From a virus, in IMG/VR virus record IMGVR_UViG_3300020194_002029, positions 1 to 50,271 of that record: DNA of 50,271 bases. One strand, 5' to 3'. Position 1 is the first letter of the stretch, and each line of letters starts with the position of its first letter. Below are positions 7,061 through 50,224 of this stretch, in pieces. Made by a program: the position numbers and the translations under genes. A model generated the notes under the pieces. That model did no database searches, was not told the DNA's origin, and was given only the letters and a program-made list of their open reading frames with translations.

Positions 7061-10000
7061 TTAAAACACTGTTATCCAGGGACCGGATCCCTCTTTATAC
7101 ACTTGAGTTTCATTGGAGGATGTTCGACGTATATAATACCACGCGCTCTCTTCGTTATTCCAAATTAATCCATAATCAGGAGCAAATTCAAAATACGCAT
7201 CTCTTGGAATAAACCACCACCCACTTTTAGATCCCCAATTAGAACAAAATATCCACAAGTCAAGACCAACAGAAAAATCTCTCAAATAAACAGATCTATT
7301 ATAATTATCATCTCTAGCCCAGTATACGTAAGCCCAACCGTAAACTGCCGAAAATATCCACTCTCTCGTCAAACAAAAACTTTGAACAAAAAATGAATCA
7401 TTCTCCATGTTATTTATTAACATTCCCGGAAACCAGCTTCCAGTAATCCAATTTCCTAACTCAATAGTTATTTCATTTGCTCCGTATTTCCAATATCCAG
7501 TTGATATACTTGAATGAATATCATCTAAACGAACCTCCCCCGCTGTTCCGGTTTGACTTAAAAGAGTAGTTTGTGTTATAATATTTTTGGTTCCATTTAA
7601 TATCGTTTGATTGGTTCCCCCGCTTATAGAATTCTCTACTCCAGAAAGTATTCCATTTGAACCCTGTATATTGCCATCCTCTTCTGCAGGCATGCTGTTT
7701 TCAAATCCTCCAGCAATAACAGAAAAATTATCTTTACATATATTTGCATAGCCTCCCCCTATTGCTGAAAAATGAGAAGAGACCTGATTCTCTGCTCCCC
7801 CAGCAATCAAAGAAGCTATATTGTCAACGACATTATCTGGATTAGAAATAAATACATTATTATATCCACCGCCAACAAATGACCCTAATTCATCAACAGC
7901 CTGACCACCATCAAGCATATTATTAATATAAGTAGATAAAGCCCCACTACCAGTATAACCAAACCCAGTGTCTATAATAGAGTTATTAATAAATGTGCCC
8001 TTAATTTCTACCTTACCCTTGGCACTAGAATATCTAATGTAAGATAAAATTTCAGATGAGTCACTTGAGTTTGCTTTTGGGTTTATACCCCCTACGTCAA
8101 AATAAGCTATTGTTGTATTATTTTCAAAATCTGTTGCCAGCAAGTATCCAGCAGGTTCATAATCATCTGTTGTCCTAGGCTGTCTAGTATCAGAATTAAA
8201 CAACCCACCTTGAAATTGATTAGACCTTAAAACCCCACCGACACCATTTTCTCCTACCTCAAGCTTACTTGCTATATATCCATCTTCCGCCAAAAGAAGT
8301 CCCGTGGCTACACTGGAGAATTCTGCGCCAAACGGCTCCCATTTGCTGCTTGTATCTGGAGTTTCTGGATTGGATGATGTTGTTGTGTGACTCTCTACGC
8401 ATATATAATAATTTCCATTATATTTAATAATATCACCCCTATAATCAGTTCCAAAATATTCTGTATTATTACCATTAGTTGACCAGTCACCCCTATATGA
8501 AGTAGCTACCCCATCTTTTCTTTTGGCAATTTGCCATACTCCGCTCCAACCTAAAGCTCCTTCATTGGTTGGGGCGGCAGTTGTATCATCCTTGTGGCTG
8601 GAAAAGATTGCTGTGGATGCATAAATTTTTTCTCCATTTTGTATATCAGTCGGAATAGAAGTATTCCATATTGAATTGGCCGGGAGATTAACTTTAGATT
8701 TTGTAAAATCATAAGTATAAGATTGTGTAGGCTTTGGTACATCGCCAGCTGATTTTGTATACAAAACAATTTCCGCCGCAACATCGCCATCTATTTTTTC
8801 AGGAGCTCCAAACGTAAAAAGAGTTCCCGCTGATCCGCTTACAGAAGATCCTTTTATTGACCATAAATACCCAGTGCCGCTAGCTCCTCCAATAGTATCA
8901 CTCCATGAGCTTCCTGGATTTGTTACTCCTGTTGAGGTTGTACTGTACGTTGGTTGACCCACGCTTTTTTGAAACCAAAAATTTGCAGCGACACCATCTT
9001 TTCTTTGAGCAACTTGCCATACTCCGCTCCAACCCGAAACTCCTTGATTGGTTGGGGCCGCAGTTGTATCATCCTTGTGGCTGGAAAAGATTGCCGTGGA
9101 TGCATAAATGTTGTCTCCATCTTGTATATCAGTCGGAATAGAAGTGTTCCATATTGAATTAGTCGGGAGATTAACTTTAGATTTTGTAAAATCATAAGTA
9201 TAAGAGACTGCAGGTTTATCCGGTGATACACTGCCAGCTGATTTTGTATACAAAACAATTTCCGCCGCAACATCGCCATCTATTTTTTCAGGAGCTCCAA
9301 ACGTAAAAAGAGTTCCCCCTGATCCGCTTACAGAAGATCCTTTTATTGACCATAAATACCCAGTGCCGCTAGCTCCTCCAATAGTATCACTCCATGAGCT
9401 TCCTGGATTTGTTATTCCTGTTGAGGTTGTACTGTACGTTGGTTGACCCACGCTTTTTTGAAACCAAAAATTTGCAGCGACACCATCTAATCTATGAGCA
9501 TATACGCTAGGAGAAGACCAACCGCCTTGAGCAGACACCCCTGTTTGGTTTTTTGACCCCAAAAACAATGCTCGAGAAACATATATTTTACCATTATCAG
9601 AATTAATACTTGGAACACTAGAAGTCCATCCGCCAGAAAGAGCGTTTAATTTGTTTTCTTTAAAATTAAATGTAGTTGTTGGAGCGGCAGTTCCACTTGT
9701 GTTATACAATACAACTTCTGCTATAGCTTCTGTTTCTACCCTGGAAGGCGTTTGCCATGTATAACTTGTTTGACCAGCCCTCTTTTCCCCTCTGCTAACC
9801 CATAAAAATCCAAGATTATCAGCGGTTAAATTAATATCGTTTGCGTCTGTATACCACCCGGTTGGAGTATTTGAGCCATTTGAGGTTGGAGCTCCCGGGT
9901 TAGTACCATTTCTTTTAAACACAAAATCTATAGAAGTTCCAGCGATAGATTTAGAAATTGTTTGTGTTGCGGAAATAGAACCGGTTTCACCGTTATATTT

Positions 10001-13000
10001 TTCAAAACTAATATTATAAGTGATGCTTCCTGAAAATGTCGATGCAGACATTGAGTTATTGGGTAAATCAGTAAAACCAAATTGCCAGTTTGTATGATTG
10101 GTTCCTGTAGTTGTTTTTTGAGAACCAATATAACTTAACCCAGTCTTATCCCTAGAACTCACCTTGCATTGACCTGCGGATAAGGTTGCCGAAGATGCCA
10201 CGGGTTTTAATCTCAGTGCTCCATCAAAAACAATAATATCCGTTCCGCTTCCACCATAATCAAACGTCCCATCTTCATCTACTTCAGGGAGATTATGATT
10301 TTCATTTAATAACTTTACAGTTACTACATTTGAACCATCTTTTATTCTTGAAATTGTTAAAGAATCTTGTACAGTAAATGATTCGCTATTATTTGAAGTG
10401 CAACTAGCAGTAACTATAACAGCTCCACTCTCTATTAGATTAAAGTCTTCAGCTGCTATATAAACTTCTTCTCCAGTCGCAGTTGCAGATGCAGACGTAT
10501 CAACTATTGATGTCCTAAATATAGCAAGCCCTGCATCACTACTCCAATTAATAACTTCGTTTATATTTTTCTTTTCTGCATTAATTTTAATGATTTGAGG
10601 ATTTAATGCGCTATAACCTTTTGTATATTTATCTTCGGTAAAAGTATACGATTCAGCGAAAATATTTAGAGCTTTCGAAGTATCTCCATCTCGACTAACA
10701 GAAAATGTTTGACGCTTAATAATTGCAAATGGTTTGTCGCTAAAAGTTCTGCCAGAAATTACATAATCAATATATACAGAAGTGGAAGAATCATTTAAGT
10801 TAGAATGATCTGCAACCCTTGCAACTCCGCTTTGACCCGAAACGGCACTTATGCTACCCGCGGATATTTCTGTAGCAGTACCTAAAGTACTAACATTTAC
10901 AGTAGCTATTGTAAATTTTCCCGCAGATAATGCTGGCGAAGTTGAAAACTGTAATGGATTTGTTCCTTCCCAAACCTGTATATCAGTTCCTGAGTGCAAA
11001 TATTCATCCCCAGTACTTGGTGTTTCGGGCTGTCCATTTTTTTCATATTCGTATCTTTCTTTGAAATGAAAATTATGATTTTCGTTAGTTAAGATTGTCG
11101 TGATTGAATCAGAACCTTCCTCTAATACATAAATTGAAATTTCATCAGAAATAGAAGGGCTTGTTGGATTTCCATATATATCTTGAGCTTGTTCGCTAGA
11201 TACTTTTATTGTCGATAAACCATGTATAACTTGTTTTGGTGTTAACCCTTCATTGACAAAATCTGAGTATTTTACCTTAACAGAAGACAGAGAACTATAG
11301 GCAGACTGATACCCAGTCGAAGAACTTCCTGTTGTGATCAGCGATCCATCTACTGCATTATATAAGGGAACTTTAGTTGACTCCCATTTTAATCTTTGAT
11401 TGTTTCCTTGAGTGTCAACATTAATAGTTATTTCGCTCAAGTCAGAAGAAAAATCTTTTTTAATTTTAAAATATTGAGAAGTTGACGAAACCCTTATTGA
11501 CTCAGTTCCTTTTCCGTCAACCAATCTAGTAATAACAGATTCTCTCTGAATATCAGAGTGAACGCTTCTTGCGTAGAGCAGAATTGTATCTTGATATTTA
11601 CTTGAACCATCCACATCTTTTTCTTCAACTAGAGAATGATAACTTTCTCTAAATCCCGCTTGACCAGGAAGTATCGCTCCGTTTTCTATATATACAGGAA
11701 GTTTAACAGAAGTACTAAAAACTCCAGGCCCATTATCAAAAGCAGCAGTATAATCATTTGACCACCTAAATCCATAATTATTTTGATAAGCAGAAAGCTC
11801 AGTAACACTCAACCAACCACCACTAGAATTTACGTGTTGAAATATATTTTCTTCAGAACCATCGTGAAACAGCCTGACAGCCCTAACTTGTATATCTTCC
11901 GCTCCCTTTATAGAAGAATTTCTAAATGTAATTGTAAGTTTAGCAACTTCGTCAGATATATTATTATTGTCAACTGCATCAAAACCATCGGCAGGCTGAA
12001 AACCTTCGTCATTTTCTATATAAGAAAAATATCTAGGAGAAGGGTTGATTTCAACAAAGTCATAATCTTTATTATTTTTTTGCTTCATTCTTCCGCGAAG
12101 CATTAACTCTCCTTCTTCAAAAGATAAACTATTTAAACCTTGTTGAAAAGCAAATGATCCATCTCCACTCAAAACAAAACCTTCGACACTAGGCTCCAAT
12201 AGATCTTTACCTTCTTGAAATTCTAATCCATAAAAGTTTGTGCTTCCTATAGATCCAGCTTTATCTGTTTCAGTTTTTATTCCATCTCCTTGATTAAAGA
12301 CCTCTATTCTATGACCCTTAATTTGACCAGCTGTTATTTTATCAGCGCTTAAGTCATTTATATGAGCGGTTTTAATCGCTGCTTCAGCAATATTAGCAGT
12401 ACCAATCAATGCGTTCGCAAAAGCTTGATGGACCGGAGTTGCAACTCCATTGGTATTTCTTGCTACAACAAAGTCTCCATCGTGAAAATCAGTAACCGTT
12501 AAAGATATAGAGTTTTCTGGAGCACTTGTATCCTGAGAATCAGCAATATGCTCATTATTTTGTATAGGATTATTTGATGGATGAATATTGCTCGTTTTAT
12601 ATTGCAAACCTTTAAAGTATACATTTTTTACTCCATTAAAAGGGTCGTTATCATAATCAAATTCAGTCCACAAAGACACACTTTCTCCAGCGTAATTCTT
12701 TTCTCCTAAATTCTTATGATTAATTTTATAGTTTGTTAAGTTTAAATCATTAGATGCATTATTCCTATCCCACCAAACATAACCATCTGTAGTTTCTCCC
12801 GCTTCTACTATATACCCAGTTCCATCATTATATAAAACATGTTGGTCCCATGTGATTTTTCCATTAGCAACATCATCCTGAAATGGATTATTTGGAACTA
12901 AAGCTATACTATCTGCAAAACCTGAAGTCATACTAATCTCAAAATCGTCTATATCTGTAGCAGTAGCTACTCCAAGAGTCAAAGTTAGACCATCAATATT

Positions 13001-20510: not shown

Positions 20511-20519
20511 GTTATACAC
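20511..20519 (-). promoter_or_regulatory. Putative late-promoter motif GTGTATAAC upstream of the I-J gene
   Basis: GTGTATAAC (minus strand) overlaps the stop codon of the K-like gene and lies 20 nt before the ATG at 20490. An AAGG four bases before that ATG is a good Shine-Dalgarno. The same arrangement occurs upstream of three other minus-strand structural genes, which is the only reason to call it regulatory. Confidence 0.4.
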
Positions 20520-20850
20520 TTATATTTTCATATAAGTAAAATTCATCAAACCTGATACTATATATTAAATATGGTATACATAATTCATCTGACGCATTAA
20601 TATCAATCTCACTAGGAGTTGCACAGCTTCTAGTATGAGAATGAACTATAACGACTGGTTCGTAATCAATTATTATTGACGAATCCATTAAAAAACGATT
20701 TTCTGGATCATGACTAATATTCTTTACTTTTAAAAAGCGTAAACCTTCATTATCTTTATAAATAATTCCGCAAGACTCTTTGGTAGAATCCTCGCAGAAT
20801 GCATTCTTTATTATGGGTAATAAACCCTGATTCTTAATCAGTTCCAACAT
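20512..20850 (-). CDS. Lambda gpK-like tail assembly protein, JAMM (Mov34/MPN) metallopeptidase domain only
   Basis: The short protein carries a complete JAMM zinc-peptidase motif: a glutamate in KESCGIIY (about residue 25), then HSH (about 70-72), then seven residues, S and D (HSHTRSCATPSEID). Lambda K-type tail proteins combine this domain with an NlpC/P60 cell-wall hydrolase domain; here only the JAMM half (about 112 aa) is present. It sits exactly where K belongs, between L and I-J. The frame also allows a TTG one codon earlier (20853), but the ATG at 20850 is preferred. The start overlaps the L gene by 17 nt, implying coupling. Confidence 0.85.
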   Translation of the reverse strand: MLELIKNQGLLPIIKNAFCEDSTKESCGIIYKDNEGLRFLKVKNISHDPENRFLMDSSIIIDYEPVVIVHSHTRSCATPSEIDINASDELCIPYLIYSIRFDEFYLYENISV

Positions 20851-21937
20851 CAAATTTATCTGTGCCAGGAAAACCGCCGAATTTCAATAATGTCTCAGAA
20901 TTTGCCTGATTATATAATTTCAAGTTTTCATCTCGATTATGCACGGAAAATCTCTTTTTACAGGCTTCCAGTGTTTTTTGGCATTCATCCTTTAACCAAT
21001 ACTCTTGAGAAAAAAATGGATGAAATTTTGCAGGTGCATCATGGGATTGAATACAAACAAAGACCTGAGGCGTAGAATTGTAAGGGTTAGAGGATTTTGT
21101 TGGAAAAATTTTCACAATATCATTTAATTCATATCCAACAGGATTGGAAGAATCATGATTTCTACCAAATCGGCTCCACTCTTTTACTTCAGAGGAAAGT
21201 ATTCCGTCTGGATACAAACCGGGATCAATATATCCTACGTTATATTTATCCTCCACTAACGGCATTTTATAGGAAAAGTTGCTTCTTAAACTCTTTCCGT
21301 TTGACGTTTCGATTGGCAGTCCTTTATATCCACAACCAACACTGCATCTATAGGTAAAACCACAATACCCAGATAACACAACCCTTGCTGGGACTAAAGT
21401 ATTCTCTAATTCAAGAGATGAAACAAGCTCAAACCTTATTGCCTCTCGACTTTCTTCAGTTTTTCTACCTATATAATAGACGTCATCCGGAAAATGAGCA
21501 TTAGTATCTGAAGAATTATATGGATTTGTTTCATTAACAAAATTCTTATTATCTAAAAACCTAACAAAAGTTCTTTTTCTTGTGACTTTGCAATTAGCAA
21601 AATCTTCATTTGAGTGAGCGATTTTAGAAAAAAGACCGTGAGGATTAGCAAGAGTAATCATTGGTCTTGGCAGCCTACCATCAGATTTGCTCTCAAAACC
21701 CTCCGCAAGCATTGGCAATGATTGATAAGCCTTATTCTGCCAGTATATCGGGTTCCCTTCATTAGAAACTGGGGTGAATCTATACACAGGTTCTGCTCCA
21801 AAATTAACCCCGTACACACCAGATAATAAATCAAAATTCGACTGAAGGTTGCTGAAATCTATTTCATATAAATCAATAATAGAGTCTGAAATAACAGACA
21901 AACTCTGATTCATTAAATTGGCAGATGAATTCGACAT
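20834..21937 (-). CDS. Minor tail protein L-like (cysteine-rich, probable Fe-S) with an inserted module
   Basis: The order M-L-K-I-J and the sequence both support gpL. The N-terminal half (YRFTPVSNEGNPIYWQNKAYQSLPMLAEGF) is the upper tail-tip domain, and FELVSSLELENTLVPARVV precedes a Cys cluster YCGFTYRCSVGCGYKG (C192, C198, C202). The C-terminal pair C319 and C326 (CQKTLEAC) precedes KFGGFPG, as in lambda L, whose four cysteines bind an iron-sulfur cluster. Between the two Cys pairs, residues about 262-316 (VGYELNDIVKIF ... VFVCIQSHD ... YWL) look like the carbohydrate-binding-type module seen elsewhere in this tail, inserted inside the metal domain. It should bridge the M protein and the J tip. 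Confidence 0.85.
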   Translation of the reverse strand: MSNSSANLMNQSLSVISDSIIDLYEIDFSNLQSNFDLLSGVYGVNFGAEPVYRFTPVSNEGNPIYWQNKAYQSLPMLAEGFESKSDGRLPRPMITLANPHGLFSKIAHSNEDFANCKVTRKRTFVRFLDNKNFVNETNPYNSSDTNAHFPDDVYYIGRKTEESREAIRFELVSSLELENTLVPARVVLSGYCGFTYRCSVGCGYKGLPIETSNGKSLRSNFSYKMPLVEDKYNVGYIDPGLYPDGILSSEVKEWSRFGRNHDSSNPVGYELNDIVKIFPTKSSNPYNSTPQVFVCIQSHDAPAKFHPFFSQEYWLKDECQKTLEACKKRFSVHNRDENLKLYNQANSETLLKFGGFPGTDKFDVGTD

Positions 21938-47738: not shown

Positions 47739-47767
47739 TTGACATTCTTTTAAATTTATAATATAAT
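47739..47767 (+). promoter_or_regulatory. Perfect-consensus sigma-70 promoter
   Basis: TTGACA (47739-47744), 17-bp spacer, TATAAT (47762-47767): full consensus at both hexamers. The -10 ends 7 nt before the ATG at 47775, again predicting a leaderless transcript. It probably drives the 57-aa gene, the DUF736/SSB-like gene and the holin-like gene. Confidence 0.9.
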
Positions 47768-47950: not shown

Positions 47951-48295
47951 ATGAGTAATCAAACGCAAGAAAAGCAAGAATCAAAGTGGCGCAGCAGAGA
48001 GCTTGGAGCTCTATGGGTGCGAAGTGGCAAAAACCAAAAGTATTTGTCCGGAAGTATCAATATCGAAACAATGCCTGGAGTTACAGAAAACATCAAGGTG
48101 GTTGTATTCACAAACAAAAACAGAGAGAAGAATGAAAAAGCTCCTGATTATGTTCTCTATCGATCTGAAGATCAAGAGCAGAAAACAGACACAGATCTAG
48201 CAGCCACTGCAAGTCAAGCAGCTAAAGAAGTTAGCAGTGAAACCCCTCAACCATCTCTGAATCAAGACTCAGATATTCCAGAAGAATTATTTTAA
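47951..48295 (+). CDS. DUF736-like / SSB-like small OB-fold candidate (114 aa)
   Basis: Residues 13-72 read ELGALWVRSGKNQKYLSGSINI ... IKVVVFTNKNREKNEKAPDYVLYRSE, matching the pattern of DUF736-type small phage/plasmid proteins (G-A-x-W, K-x-Y-L-S/T-G, V-F-x-N, K-A-P-D-Y). The rest is a flexible acidic tail rich in T/S/Q/A ending SDIPEELF. An acidic disordered tail with a terminal hydrophobic residue is how bacterial SSBs recruit partners, so a ssDNA-binding role is a reasonable inference. It follows the 57-aa gene by 2 nt. Confidence 0.55.
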   Translation: MSNQTQEKQESKWRSRELGALWVRSGKNQKYLSGSINIETMPGVTENIKVVVFTNKNREKNEKAPDYVLYRSEDQEQKTDTDLAATASQAAKEVSSETPQPSLNQDSDIPEELF

Positions 48296-48301
48296 TAATA
48301 T

Positions 48302-48517
48302 ATGAACAATATCTTATCTAAATTATCGAGTACTGGCGAAAAGCAATTTTGGCACAGTAAAAAGTTTTGGGCAGCAATAGTAGCTGTAGCAGTCCCTATC
48401 TTAAATCATTTTTTTAAGTTGGGATTAACGCAAGAAGTTGTGGTTCAAGTTGTCGGTCCAATTTCGGCTTATATTCTTGGCCAAGGTCTCGCTGATCTAG
48501 GCAAGAACAAAAGTTAA
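48302..48517 (+). CDS. Holin-like small membrane protein
   Basis: A 71-aa protein with a polar N-terminus, a first hydrophobic segment (about 22-38, WAAIVAVAVPILNHFF), a short loop, a second one (about 45-62, VVVQVVGPISAYILGQGL) and a charged end (ADLGKNKS). Size and two membrane segments fit a class II-type holin. No endolysin gene is adjacent in the window, so lysis function is an inference from topology. Confidence 0.55.
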   Translation: MNNILSKLSSTGEKQFWHSKKFWAAIVAVAVPILNHFFKLGLTQEVVVQVVGPISAYILGQGLADLGKNKS

Positions 48518-48525
48518 TCGTTCTT

Positions 48526-48549
48526 TGAAATTTAGAAGTATAAATTTCA
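48526..48549. repeat. Inverted repeat TGAAATTTA-N6-TAAATTTCA before the tmRNA gene
   Basis: The 9-bp arms (48526-48534, 48541-48549) are perfect but almost all A-T. It lies 9 nt after the holin-like stop codon and 52 nt upstream of tmRNA. It could be a weak terminator or a regulator site; there is no good T-run. Confidence 0.4.
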
Positions 48550-48588
48550 CTTTGTTATTAATTAAATAATTAATTCACCTCATTAATT

Positions 48589-48594
48589 TATACT
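48589..48594 (+). promoter_or_regulatory. -10 element of the tmRNA gene
   Basis: TATACT ends 6 nt before the first base of the tmRNA acceptor stem at 48601, the distance expected for a transcription start exactly at the mature 5' end. No convincing -35 is visible 17 bp upstream (the region is a run of A/T), so the promoter may need an activator or read-through adds to it. Confidence 0.55.
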
Positions 48595-48600
48595 TCAAAT

Positions 48601-48967
48601 GGGCGCGTACTGGATTCGATTTAAGTTGGATGAAATATGGCGCAAGTCGAAGAGGTGCCTGGCTTCGTTAAAAGGCACAAACTTGTACATGGCAAGAATA
48701 AAAATCGTGTCCAAGCTTTCAGCCCAGTGGCTGAGAAATTGGCTTTAGCAGCTTAGCTCTGCTACCCCTCCCTATCAGACGCAGATAAGATAGGTGAGGG
48801 GTCATTTATCTGCAAAACAGAAAAAGTTTATTTGTATCACAAACTGTAAATAATTGAAACAAATGGTTGGATGTTTATATCTAAACCTTAAAAAAAATAA
48901 ACTAAACTTGTAGACTCACACTTCTTAAAATTTAAAGACGCGGGTTCGACTCCCGCCGCGTCCACCA
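48601..48967 (+). ncRNA. ssrA: Phage-encoded tmRNA (ssrA)
   Basis: The 5' end GGGCGCG pairs with CGCGTCC (48957-48963) to form a 7-bp acceptor stem with one G-U, followed by an encoded ACCA. The T-arm is GCGGG-TTCGACT-CCCGC (48940-48956). The 5' segment CTGGATTCGA is the conserved tmRNA start. An in-frame tag runs 48691-48756: it begins GKNKNRVQ, continues AFSPVAE and ends KLALAA followed by TAG. The LALAA end is the ClpXP degradation signal. Downstream, ACCCCTCCCTATC pairs with GATAGGTGAGGGGT as part of a pseudoknot. tmRNA rescues stalled ribosomes by trans-translation with SmpB. The gene is one-piece and about 367 nt, normal for the class. The tag start codon is the most likely reading. Confidence 0.96.
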
Positions 48968-48976
48968 ATTATTTTA

Positions 48977-49393
48977 ATGATAATCACACAAAAATGTATT
49001 TTTGATGATTCTTCTAAATTAATTTTTTATGATCTATTAAAGACCTTTGAAGCATACTTTGCAAACGACATATTAATGGAATCAGTTGCTACAAATGGCT
49101 CTAAATTTTTAGACATAAACTTTAATAAAAATAGCATATTCAAGGAAAATTATTATACGATATTAATAAATGCCCTTGATTGCTATCAACCTTTTCTAAG
49201 AGTTGATCAGCTATTCAAAAATAGAATTGAGCTACAGTGTTGCTTTTACAATTTCGGCATAGCAAAAGGAGAGTCATTTATATATATGGTAAAAAACACA
49301 ATGGATTGGACTAATAACAACAATTTTTATTGTCAAGTAATTAATTTAATAGAACCAAACGAAGAAACAATTCAAAATTTTTGGAGATCATGA
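48977..49393 (+). CDS. Unknown protein (138 aa)
   Basis: Begins 9 nt after the tmRNA 3' end, so it is probably co-transcribed with it. Alternating hydrophobic/polar sequence (KLIFYDLLKTFEAYFANDILMES, YYTILINALDCYQPFLRVDQLF, CQVINLIEPNEETIQNFWRS) suggests a compact alpha/beta fold. Several cysteines but no metal motif. No family recognised. The stop overlaps the next ATG (ATGA). Confidence 0.55.
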   Translation: MIITQKCIFDDSSKLIFYDLLKTFEAYFANDILMESVATNGSKFLDINFNKNSIFKENYYTILINALDCYQPFLRVDQLFKNRIELQCCFYNFGIAKGESFIYMVKNTMDWTNNNNFYCQVINLIEPNEETIQNFWRS

Positions 49394-49686
49394 AAATTTT
49401 AGATAAAATTAAAAAAATTATACCGACTAAAAGTTCGATCAGTGACGAGGAAGCCACTCTTAATTCAATTATATTAAATAGATTGTTTGCAGAAAAAAAA
49501 TCTTTAAATAATCGACCTAATGAATTAACAGAAGAAGAGTGGGTTCGCGAAATAAATTCGATGATTTTTTCTTTTAGAACAGTAAAAAGCAATGTATACT
49601 TAAGATCGCCCACAAGGAAAAGGCAGAGGGAATTAAGAATACAAAAAGGTTTTAATTCCTTTATTAACTATTATAATCAACTGTGA
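49390..49686 (+). CDS. Unknown protein (98 aa)
   Basis: The ATG at 49390 overlaps the upstream stop as ATGA and is preceded by GGAG at 5 nt, so it is preferred to the TTG at 49381. The protein has a basic N-terminal helix (KILDKIKKIIPTKSS), a central ELTEEEWVREINSMIFSFRTV helix and a basic SPTRKRQRELRIQKGF patch, which could contact nucleic acid. No family recognised. Confidence 0.5.
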   Translation: MKILDKIKKIIPTKSSISDEEATLNSIILNRLFAEKKSLNNRPNELTEEEWVREINSMIFSFRTVKSNVYLRSPTRKRQRELRIQKGFNSFINYYNQL

Positions 49687-49687
49687 T

Positions 49688-49909
49688 ATGAATGAAGACG
49701 AGGAAGATGATGAATTGTTTATTACAGGTCCAAAAGATTATGACGAGCAAACAGATTCTTTTCGCATGGACTTGGAGAATCTGATTTATCATTACATTGA
49801 TGAATTTGATATCAATACAATCACAATCATTGGAGCATTACAAGAAAAAGTAGTCGAACTTGCCAACGAAGGAAATGTAGAATTTGATTCGGATATCGAT
49901 TTAGATTAA
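49688..49909 (+). CDS. Small acidic protein (73 aa)
   Basis: Starts 1 nt after the previous stop. Strongly acidic at both ends (MNEDEEDDELFI; FDSDIDLD) with a predicted central helix (LENLIYHYIDEF, IIGALQEKVVELANEG). Highly acidic small phage proteins sometimes act as DNA mimics or inhibitors, but nothing here shows that. Last gene of the tmRNA-linked set; a new promoter follows. Confidence 0.5.
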   Translation: MNEDEEDDELFITGPKDYDEQTDSFRMDLENLIYHYIDEFDINTITIIGALQEKVVELANEGNVEFDSDIDLD

Positions 49910-49954: not shown

Positions 49955-50224
49955 ATGAATAAAATCTCATTAAACAAAGATGGTACTCCCCGCAAACGCC
50001 GCAACAGTGGCAAAGGCGGTTCCGCTATTGTGACCTTGTCTATTCAAGAGATTCTCGATCTTGCCGCGCAAGATGTTAACAAAATTCCTGTGAGCGAGGA
50101 TTGGGTAAAGGGAAGACTTTACGCAAATTACCTCTCAGGCAAAACAGTTTCTCATGATTTTTCTGATCTGCAATCTGTAGAAGACAAGATTGAATACGCA
50201 CTTACCGACTTTGACAATGAATAA
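49955..50224 (+). CDS. Unknown protein with basic N-terminus (89 aa)
   Basis: The N-terminal DGTPRKRRNSGKGGSAIVTLSIQEIL is basic and flexible, followed by helices (LDLAAQDVNKIPVSEDWVKGRLYANYLSG). Compositionally a candidate DNA-binding or replication accessory protein. It precedes and overlaps by 8 nt the start of an AAA+ ATPase gene, hinting at a replication operon. No family recognised. Confidence 0.5.
   Translation: MNKISLNKDGTPRKRRNSGKGGSAIVTLSIQEILDLAAQDVNKIPVSEDWVKGRLYANYLSGKTVSHDFSDLQSVEDKIEYALTDFDNE

Follow-up and report, generated by a model that had tools for sequence, protein, structure and literature searches.

Phage-borne tmRNAs as such are already known. Complete ssrA genes are carried by mycobacteriophages Bxz1, Cali, Wildcat and others and by Bacillus phage G (PMC4131195), and ssrA was reported in 402 of 18,146 phage genomes (PMC9004378). 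The locus described here likewise holds a complete phage-borne ssrA, in a phage unrelated to Bxz1, Cali, Wildcat and phage G as far as could be seen. Melnitz and the pelagimyophages are also an aquatic phage group retaining a tmRNA; theirs is two-piece and permuted and is reported to be under a glutamine riboswitch, whereas the present one is one-piece and follows a boxA-like leader. The bacterial one-piece tmRNA (RF00023), whose commonest tag length is 10 aa (PMC11915505), is the same in its tRNA-like domain with G3:U70, its tag frame ending in ALAA, its four pseudoknots and its encoded CCA. The gene in the window (the whole stretch of DNA analysed, 50,271 nt, which is an entire IMG/VR record) differs from it in a tag of 21 aa, in a 3′ end that runs straight into protein genes and in having no smpB of its own. 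The motif GYTCTTTAANA is shared with the boxA of E. coli suhB and of rRNA operons (PMC5725501). Like the rRNA-operon boxA, it stands just 5′ of a structured untranslated RNA, but here it adjoins tmRNA rather than rRNA and is a candidate NusB-S10 site only. The novelty lies in the long tags and the boxA-like leader of a one-piece tmRNA kept across a phage lineage. With a tmRNA in every member checked, tags of its own and a leader like that of rRNA, this lineage offers a way to test why phages carry such a gene.

The tmRNA gene lies at 48601–48967; it, its leader and the flanking genes given below are all on the + strand. It was the sole gene called by ARAGORN in the window, and its ends and tag agree with the Rfam match, which covered model positions 1–374 of 374 of RF00023 with 141.5 bits (E 1.7e-55; gathering score 47). 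The permuted-tmRNA model reached only 17.9 bits at this locus, and no Rfam family other than RF00023 exceeded threshold in the window. The sequence-only reading had described a complete tmRNA with all hallmarks and had named a covariance-model search with the tmRNA Rfam model as the check; the significant full-length match bears the description out. Read directly from the sequence, the acceptor GGGCGCG/CGCGTCC has 7 bp with G3:U70 (5′ strand 48601–48607, pairing with 48957–48963), the T-arm GCGGG-TTCGACT-CCCGC is standard and CCA is encoded. The T-arm, the 3′ acceptor strand and the CCA together span 48940–48967, a segment swapped as a cassette in relatives. The tag reading frame called by ARAGORN, GKNKNRVQAFSPVAEKLALAA followed by the stop TAG, occupies 48691–48756 (gene positions 91–156). 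Pseudoknots PK1 (48648–48678), PK2 (48765–48813), PK3 (48817–48864) and PK4 (48865–48902) could all be drawn, and covariation in relatives supports each.

Relatives were collected with the 89-aa protein encoded at 49955–50224, a bait chosen independently of the tmRNA. All 28 viral contigs found in this way (70–100% identity) carry a tmRNA above the Rfam cut-off. ARAGORN missed the tmRNA in 11 of them, and pipelines that annotate with this program will therefore report too few phage tmRNAs of this family. The conservation of the fold was scored over 90 pairs from the structure of the window sequence across 29 tmRNAs. Pair cells were kept in 94.3% of cases, against about 40–44% when the partners were slid by 1–3 columns, a control that is generous to the drawn structure because that structure was taken from one of the aligned sequences; the double changes are the stronger evidence. 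Compensatory changes on both sides were found in 41 of the 90 pairs, and both sides had changed in 9 of the 12 pairs of the first stem of PK2 and in 5 of the 6 pairs of the second stem of PK3. The acceptor stem was 100% paired, and the G3:U70 alanine signal was kept in the tmRNAs of all 29 relatives. The drawn pairs at columns 60/74, 195/215, 196/214 and 302/315 failed to hold. In six contigs (L020, L022–L025 and L029) the tmRNA measures 391–392 nt and has 23 nt inserted behind the first PK3 stem.

The tag was compared with those of 103 distinct bacterial ssrA genes, sampled from three bacterial groups only, where it measures 9–16 aa, against 21 aa in the window. In a tree with the sampled bacterial ssrA genes the phage tmRNAs formed one clade (support 0.999), within which tags range from 19 aa up to 31–32 aa or more. 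Among 20 distinct 21-aa tags, pN/pS was 0.39 in the tag frame, falling to 0 at GKN and to 0.11 over the last five tag codons, whereas the two shifted frames gave 0.88 and 2.02; all these ratios are approximate because RNA structure constrains the tag region too. GKN was invariant while codons 2 and 3 varied silently, and ALAA was invariant across the 21-aa tags despite many silent changes. The earlier description of a distinctive 21-residue tag, longer than common host tags, is supported, and so is a phage-specific tag; it exceeds the sampled bacterial tags, and its frame is under purifying selection. Searching 84,980 genomes for GGATTYGA-N50-80-TACATGGCAANAA returned 46 stretches, none with an ARAGORN tmRNA; the tag signature looks phage-specific by this measure, a weak indication given so exact a pattern. 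Judged from the alignments, both the tmRNA fold and the tag frame are under selection, and the presence of the tmRNA in all relatives checked makes a working role in infection probable.

Other tags were seen among the phage tmRNAs. Very basic tags that reach about 31 aa or longer and seem to be internally duplicated occur in L137, L143, L147 (31–32 aa), L132, L138, L139 and L145. On the other hand, L128, L130, L153, L154 and L157 have acidic tags with an EELEMVA end in place of ALAA. With the start chosen by ARAGORN the tag of this acidic group has 21 aa, and it would have 34 aa if translation resumes at a conserved HG position.

The tmRNA sits within a conserved gene order. A sigma70-type promoter, TTGACA-N17-TATAAT, matches the consensus at 12 of 12 positions (47739–47767), and nearly all relatives whose sequence extends far enough in this direction have a 12/12 match 563–862 nt ahead of the tmRNA. 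The first gene after the promoter is small and conserved (114 aa, 47951–48295; weak DUF736 match below cut-off), and it is followed by a holin-like gene of 71 aa (48302–48517; phrog_9987 holin, E 1e-10). Downstream, a 138-aa gene of the same operon (48977–49393) starts 10 nt past the tmRNA 3′ end, and conserved 101-aa (49381–49686), acidic 73-aa (49688–49909) and conserved 89-aa bait genes complete the series. Given the conserved distal promoter and the next gene only 10 nt downstream, the tmRNA is probably cut from a long transcript.

Between the holin-like gene and the tmRNA, a boxA-like motif, CGTTCTTTGAAA, was found at 48519–48530. It matches the boxA-like consensus TGYTCTTTRAMA at 11 of 12 positions and the strict E. 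coli boxA at 8 of 12. The leader is conserved in the relatives, whose motif fits the boxA-like consensus at 9–11 of 12 positions and, at best, the E. coli rrn boxA at 11. A TCTTT core is present at −14 to −16 in 17 of the 21 distinct leaders of the bait-derived set, compared with a chance rate of about 9% of 30-nt stretches, although these leaders are related to each other and the figures do not count independent events. Examples just before the mature 5′ end are AGCTCTTTAACAGTTTAA in L013 and TGATCTTTAACAGTTTAT in L014. In the window and L005 the motif lies about 65 nt further out than in most relatives, with hairpins of differing sequence in between. The window motif stands about 70–80 nt ahead of the tmRNA and is separated from it by a hairpin at 48535–48596 (12-bp outer stem 48535–48546/48585–48596; −14.0 kcal/mol, z −4.0); the L005 hairpin, in the same place, has −15.9 kcal/mol and z −3.35. 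The leader is not indispensable, because one subclade of five contigs (L020, L022–L025) is without a good boxA. Some relatives that have no holin just upstream of the tmRNA still keep the motif, and its conservation as part of the holin gene was rejected on this ground. It was also rejected as a general phage promoter: of the same-strand window matches of at least 11/12 only one adjoins the tmRNA, and the others lie elsewhere and share no context. When viral contigs were scanned for a boxA beside the 5′ end of a tmRNA, 43 stretches were returned, and several of these belong to phages whose tags are quite different; being selected by the motif, this set says nothing on frequency.

In the window the motif marks the end of translation and the start of a 450-nt untranslated stretch, and so would be placed where protection from Rho would be needed. 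We lean slightly towards the leader acting as a boxA. Alternatively, the motif could be a processing or start signal of the tmRNA, serving RNase P or transcription initiation; this would concern the leader part only and is possible, but clearly the less probable of the two. For antitermination, a spacing as tight as 14–16 nt from the mature 5′ end should not be required, and L035 has a promoter that ends shortly before the motif. Against this alternative stand the distance of the motif from the 5′ end in the window and L005, its closeness to the E. coli rrn boxA and the conserved promoter hundreds of nucleotides upstream in most relatives. In bacterial genomes where both leaders could be read, the resemblance of the ssrA leader to the rrn leader motif weighs against it as well.

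In bacteria, an exact pattern for the boxA-like motif beside ssrA was matched in 20 of 296 Bacteroidota and 12 of 198 Desulfobacterota, with 1 and 0 genomes for the reversed-pattern control, and in none of 185 Gammaproteobacteria. ARAGORN placed a tmRNA at 28 of the 32 bacterial matches. Where samples were drawn independently of the motif, readable leaders carried it in 3 of 17 Bacteroidota (among them the doubtful L197, where it stands 22 nt off), 2 of 15 Desulfobacterota and 0 of 19 Gammaproteobacteria. In the Bacteroidota and Desulfobacterota loci L165, L172, L175 and L178–L196 the motif lies 3–9 nt ahead of ssrA. A similar motif was present in the rrn leader of three of the four bacterial genomes with a readable 250-nt rrn leader, and in G249 the ssrA leader resembles the rrn leader motif (GTTCTTTGAAAA and GCTCTTTGAAAA). 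No report of boxA beside ssrA was found in the literature searched, whose coverage left out most subscription journals. These leaders suggest a transcription control common to rRNA and the ribosome-rescue RNA in some bacteria, an arrangement of which we found no description.

SmpB (PF01668) was not found in 29 records, comprising the group and outliers; these are fragments and include contigs of 126 and 140 kb. The remark that no smpB is visible thus applies to the relatives as well as the window, and without smpB the phage tmRNA would depend on that of the host. Clues to this host conflict. Shine-Dalgarno sites are few (2 of 25 genes), and the tree shows a weak affinity of the phage tmRNAs to a Bacteroidota clade (support 0.777); against this stands the perfect TTGACA/TATAAT promoter, of a kind that Bacteroidota are not known to use. 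No close cultured relative of the window phage was found, and the RuvB/AAA-like and 541-aa proteins of a 140-kb relative, the largest size among the relatives, had no match in cultured phages.

Taken together, we consider it quite probable that the phage supplies a working tmRNA during infection. We infer expression, charging, SmpB use, NusB binding and the fate of tagged proteins as follows. A transcript from the promoter at 47739 would run through the 114-aa gene, the holin-like gene, the tmRNA and the four small genes behind it. At the boxA-like leader RNA polymerase probably takes up the NusB-S10 antitermination complex of the host, and would then cross the untranslated structured stretch without a Rho stop. 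After release by RNase P and 3′ nucleases, the tmRNA would be charged via G3:U70 by the alanyl-tRNA synthetase of the host and brought by host SmpB to ribosomes that have stalled on broken mRNA. There the tag GKNKNRVQAFSPVAEKLALAA would be added to the nascent protein, which would then be degraded via its ALAA end. It is plausible that such a tmRNA changes rescue or tagging relative to the host; retention of the C-terminal ALAA, the usual degradation signal, favours ordinary degradation over a new fate.

The RNA might instead act mainly as a decoy or competitor that takes SmpB or replaces the host tmRNA in favour of the phage, rather than adding capacity, for example by keeping proteins from a host protease adaptor. 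Phage DS6A carries a form with the tRNA-like domain only, and such a molecule strongly inhibits tmRNA (PMC4131195); moreover, the body of the phage tag is unlike the sampled bacterial tags and some relatives have altered T loops. But a decoy needs no tag, and here purifying selection acts on the tag frame, the tags keep ALAA at the end and all pseudoknots are retained, which makes this explanation unlikely. A host ssrA acquired by imprecise excision or recombination, without function for the phage, is a good deal less probable still. Host ssrA is indeed a common integration site and prophages carry pieces of it (PMC9004378), yet pairs and reading frame would have decayed in a copy free of constraint, whereas this one is conserved in 28 of 28 contigs with compensatory changes and a selected tag, and it belongs to a single phage clade with long tags absent from the sampled bacteria. 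A bacterial origin or a chimeric assembly of the record is scarcely credible: although it is an uncultured 50-kb fragment in which no terminase or capsid genes were recognised, tape measure, tail fibre and holin genes lie on the same piece and the neighbourhood is repeated in 28 other viral contigs. The tape measure protein has 2429 aa and only distant relatives, the tail fibre ends in a domain common to many tail fibres, and a glycosyltransferase is also encoded. Among the tail genes of the window, a Prok-JAB domain protein (E 3e-7) is encoded at 20512–20853, and the 140-kb relative L118 encodes an rIIA-like protein at 9922–12207.

The 3′ end of the phage tmRNA varies separately. Variants of the T-arm and 3′ strand do not track the rest of the molecule (alignment A2, columns 375–403), and swapped 3′ ends were found in L003, L005, L006, L007, L014, L026 and L036, some of them without an encoded CCA. 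The tmRNAs of L003 and L004 are near-identical, the T-arm excepted, while L006, L014 and L036 have a common 3′ ending with AAA replacing CCA. Three relatives have an altered T loop. Given the altered T loops and missing encoded CCA, a few of the tmRNA copies may be impaired. In L009 (1596–2171), and at the same place in L010, an HNH/endonuclease VII-like gene begins 42 nt after the tmRNA; the L009 product matched PHROGs phrog_3322 (E 2e-20) and no Pfam family. Between tmRNA and endonuclease gene both contigs hold a remnant, ...CACTTCCACCA, which resembles a displaced old 3′ end, and they combine an altered 8-nt T loop with this displaced remnant (TTCCACCA). L014 has such a remnant and no endonuclease gene. 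These arrangements suggest that homing into the tmRNA 3′ end would explain the cassette swaps. An intron in the T loop of L009 was rejected, as the tmRNA 3′ end is complete ahead of the endonuclease gene.

More tentatively, a widespread uncultured phage group and some bacteria may transcribe tmRNA under boxA/NusB-S10 antitermination, the phages with a private long-tag tmRNA (some tags very basic, some acidic and without the ALAA end) whose 3′ end would be a recurrent target of homing endonucleases; we hold this wider picture to be somewhat short of an even chance. Outside the phage clade, the viral contig L037 carries at 7976–8342 a tmRNA of bacterial type with the tag AKNNNSYALAA, and this contig is perhaps a provirus at a host ssrA.
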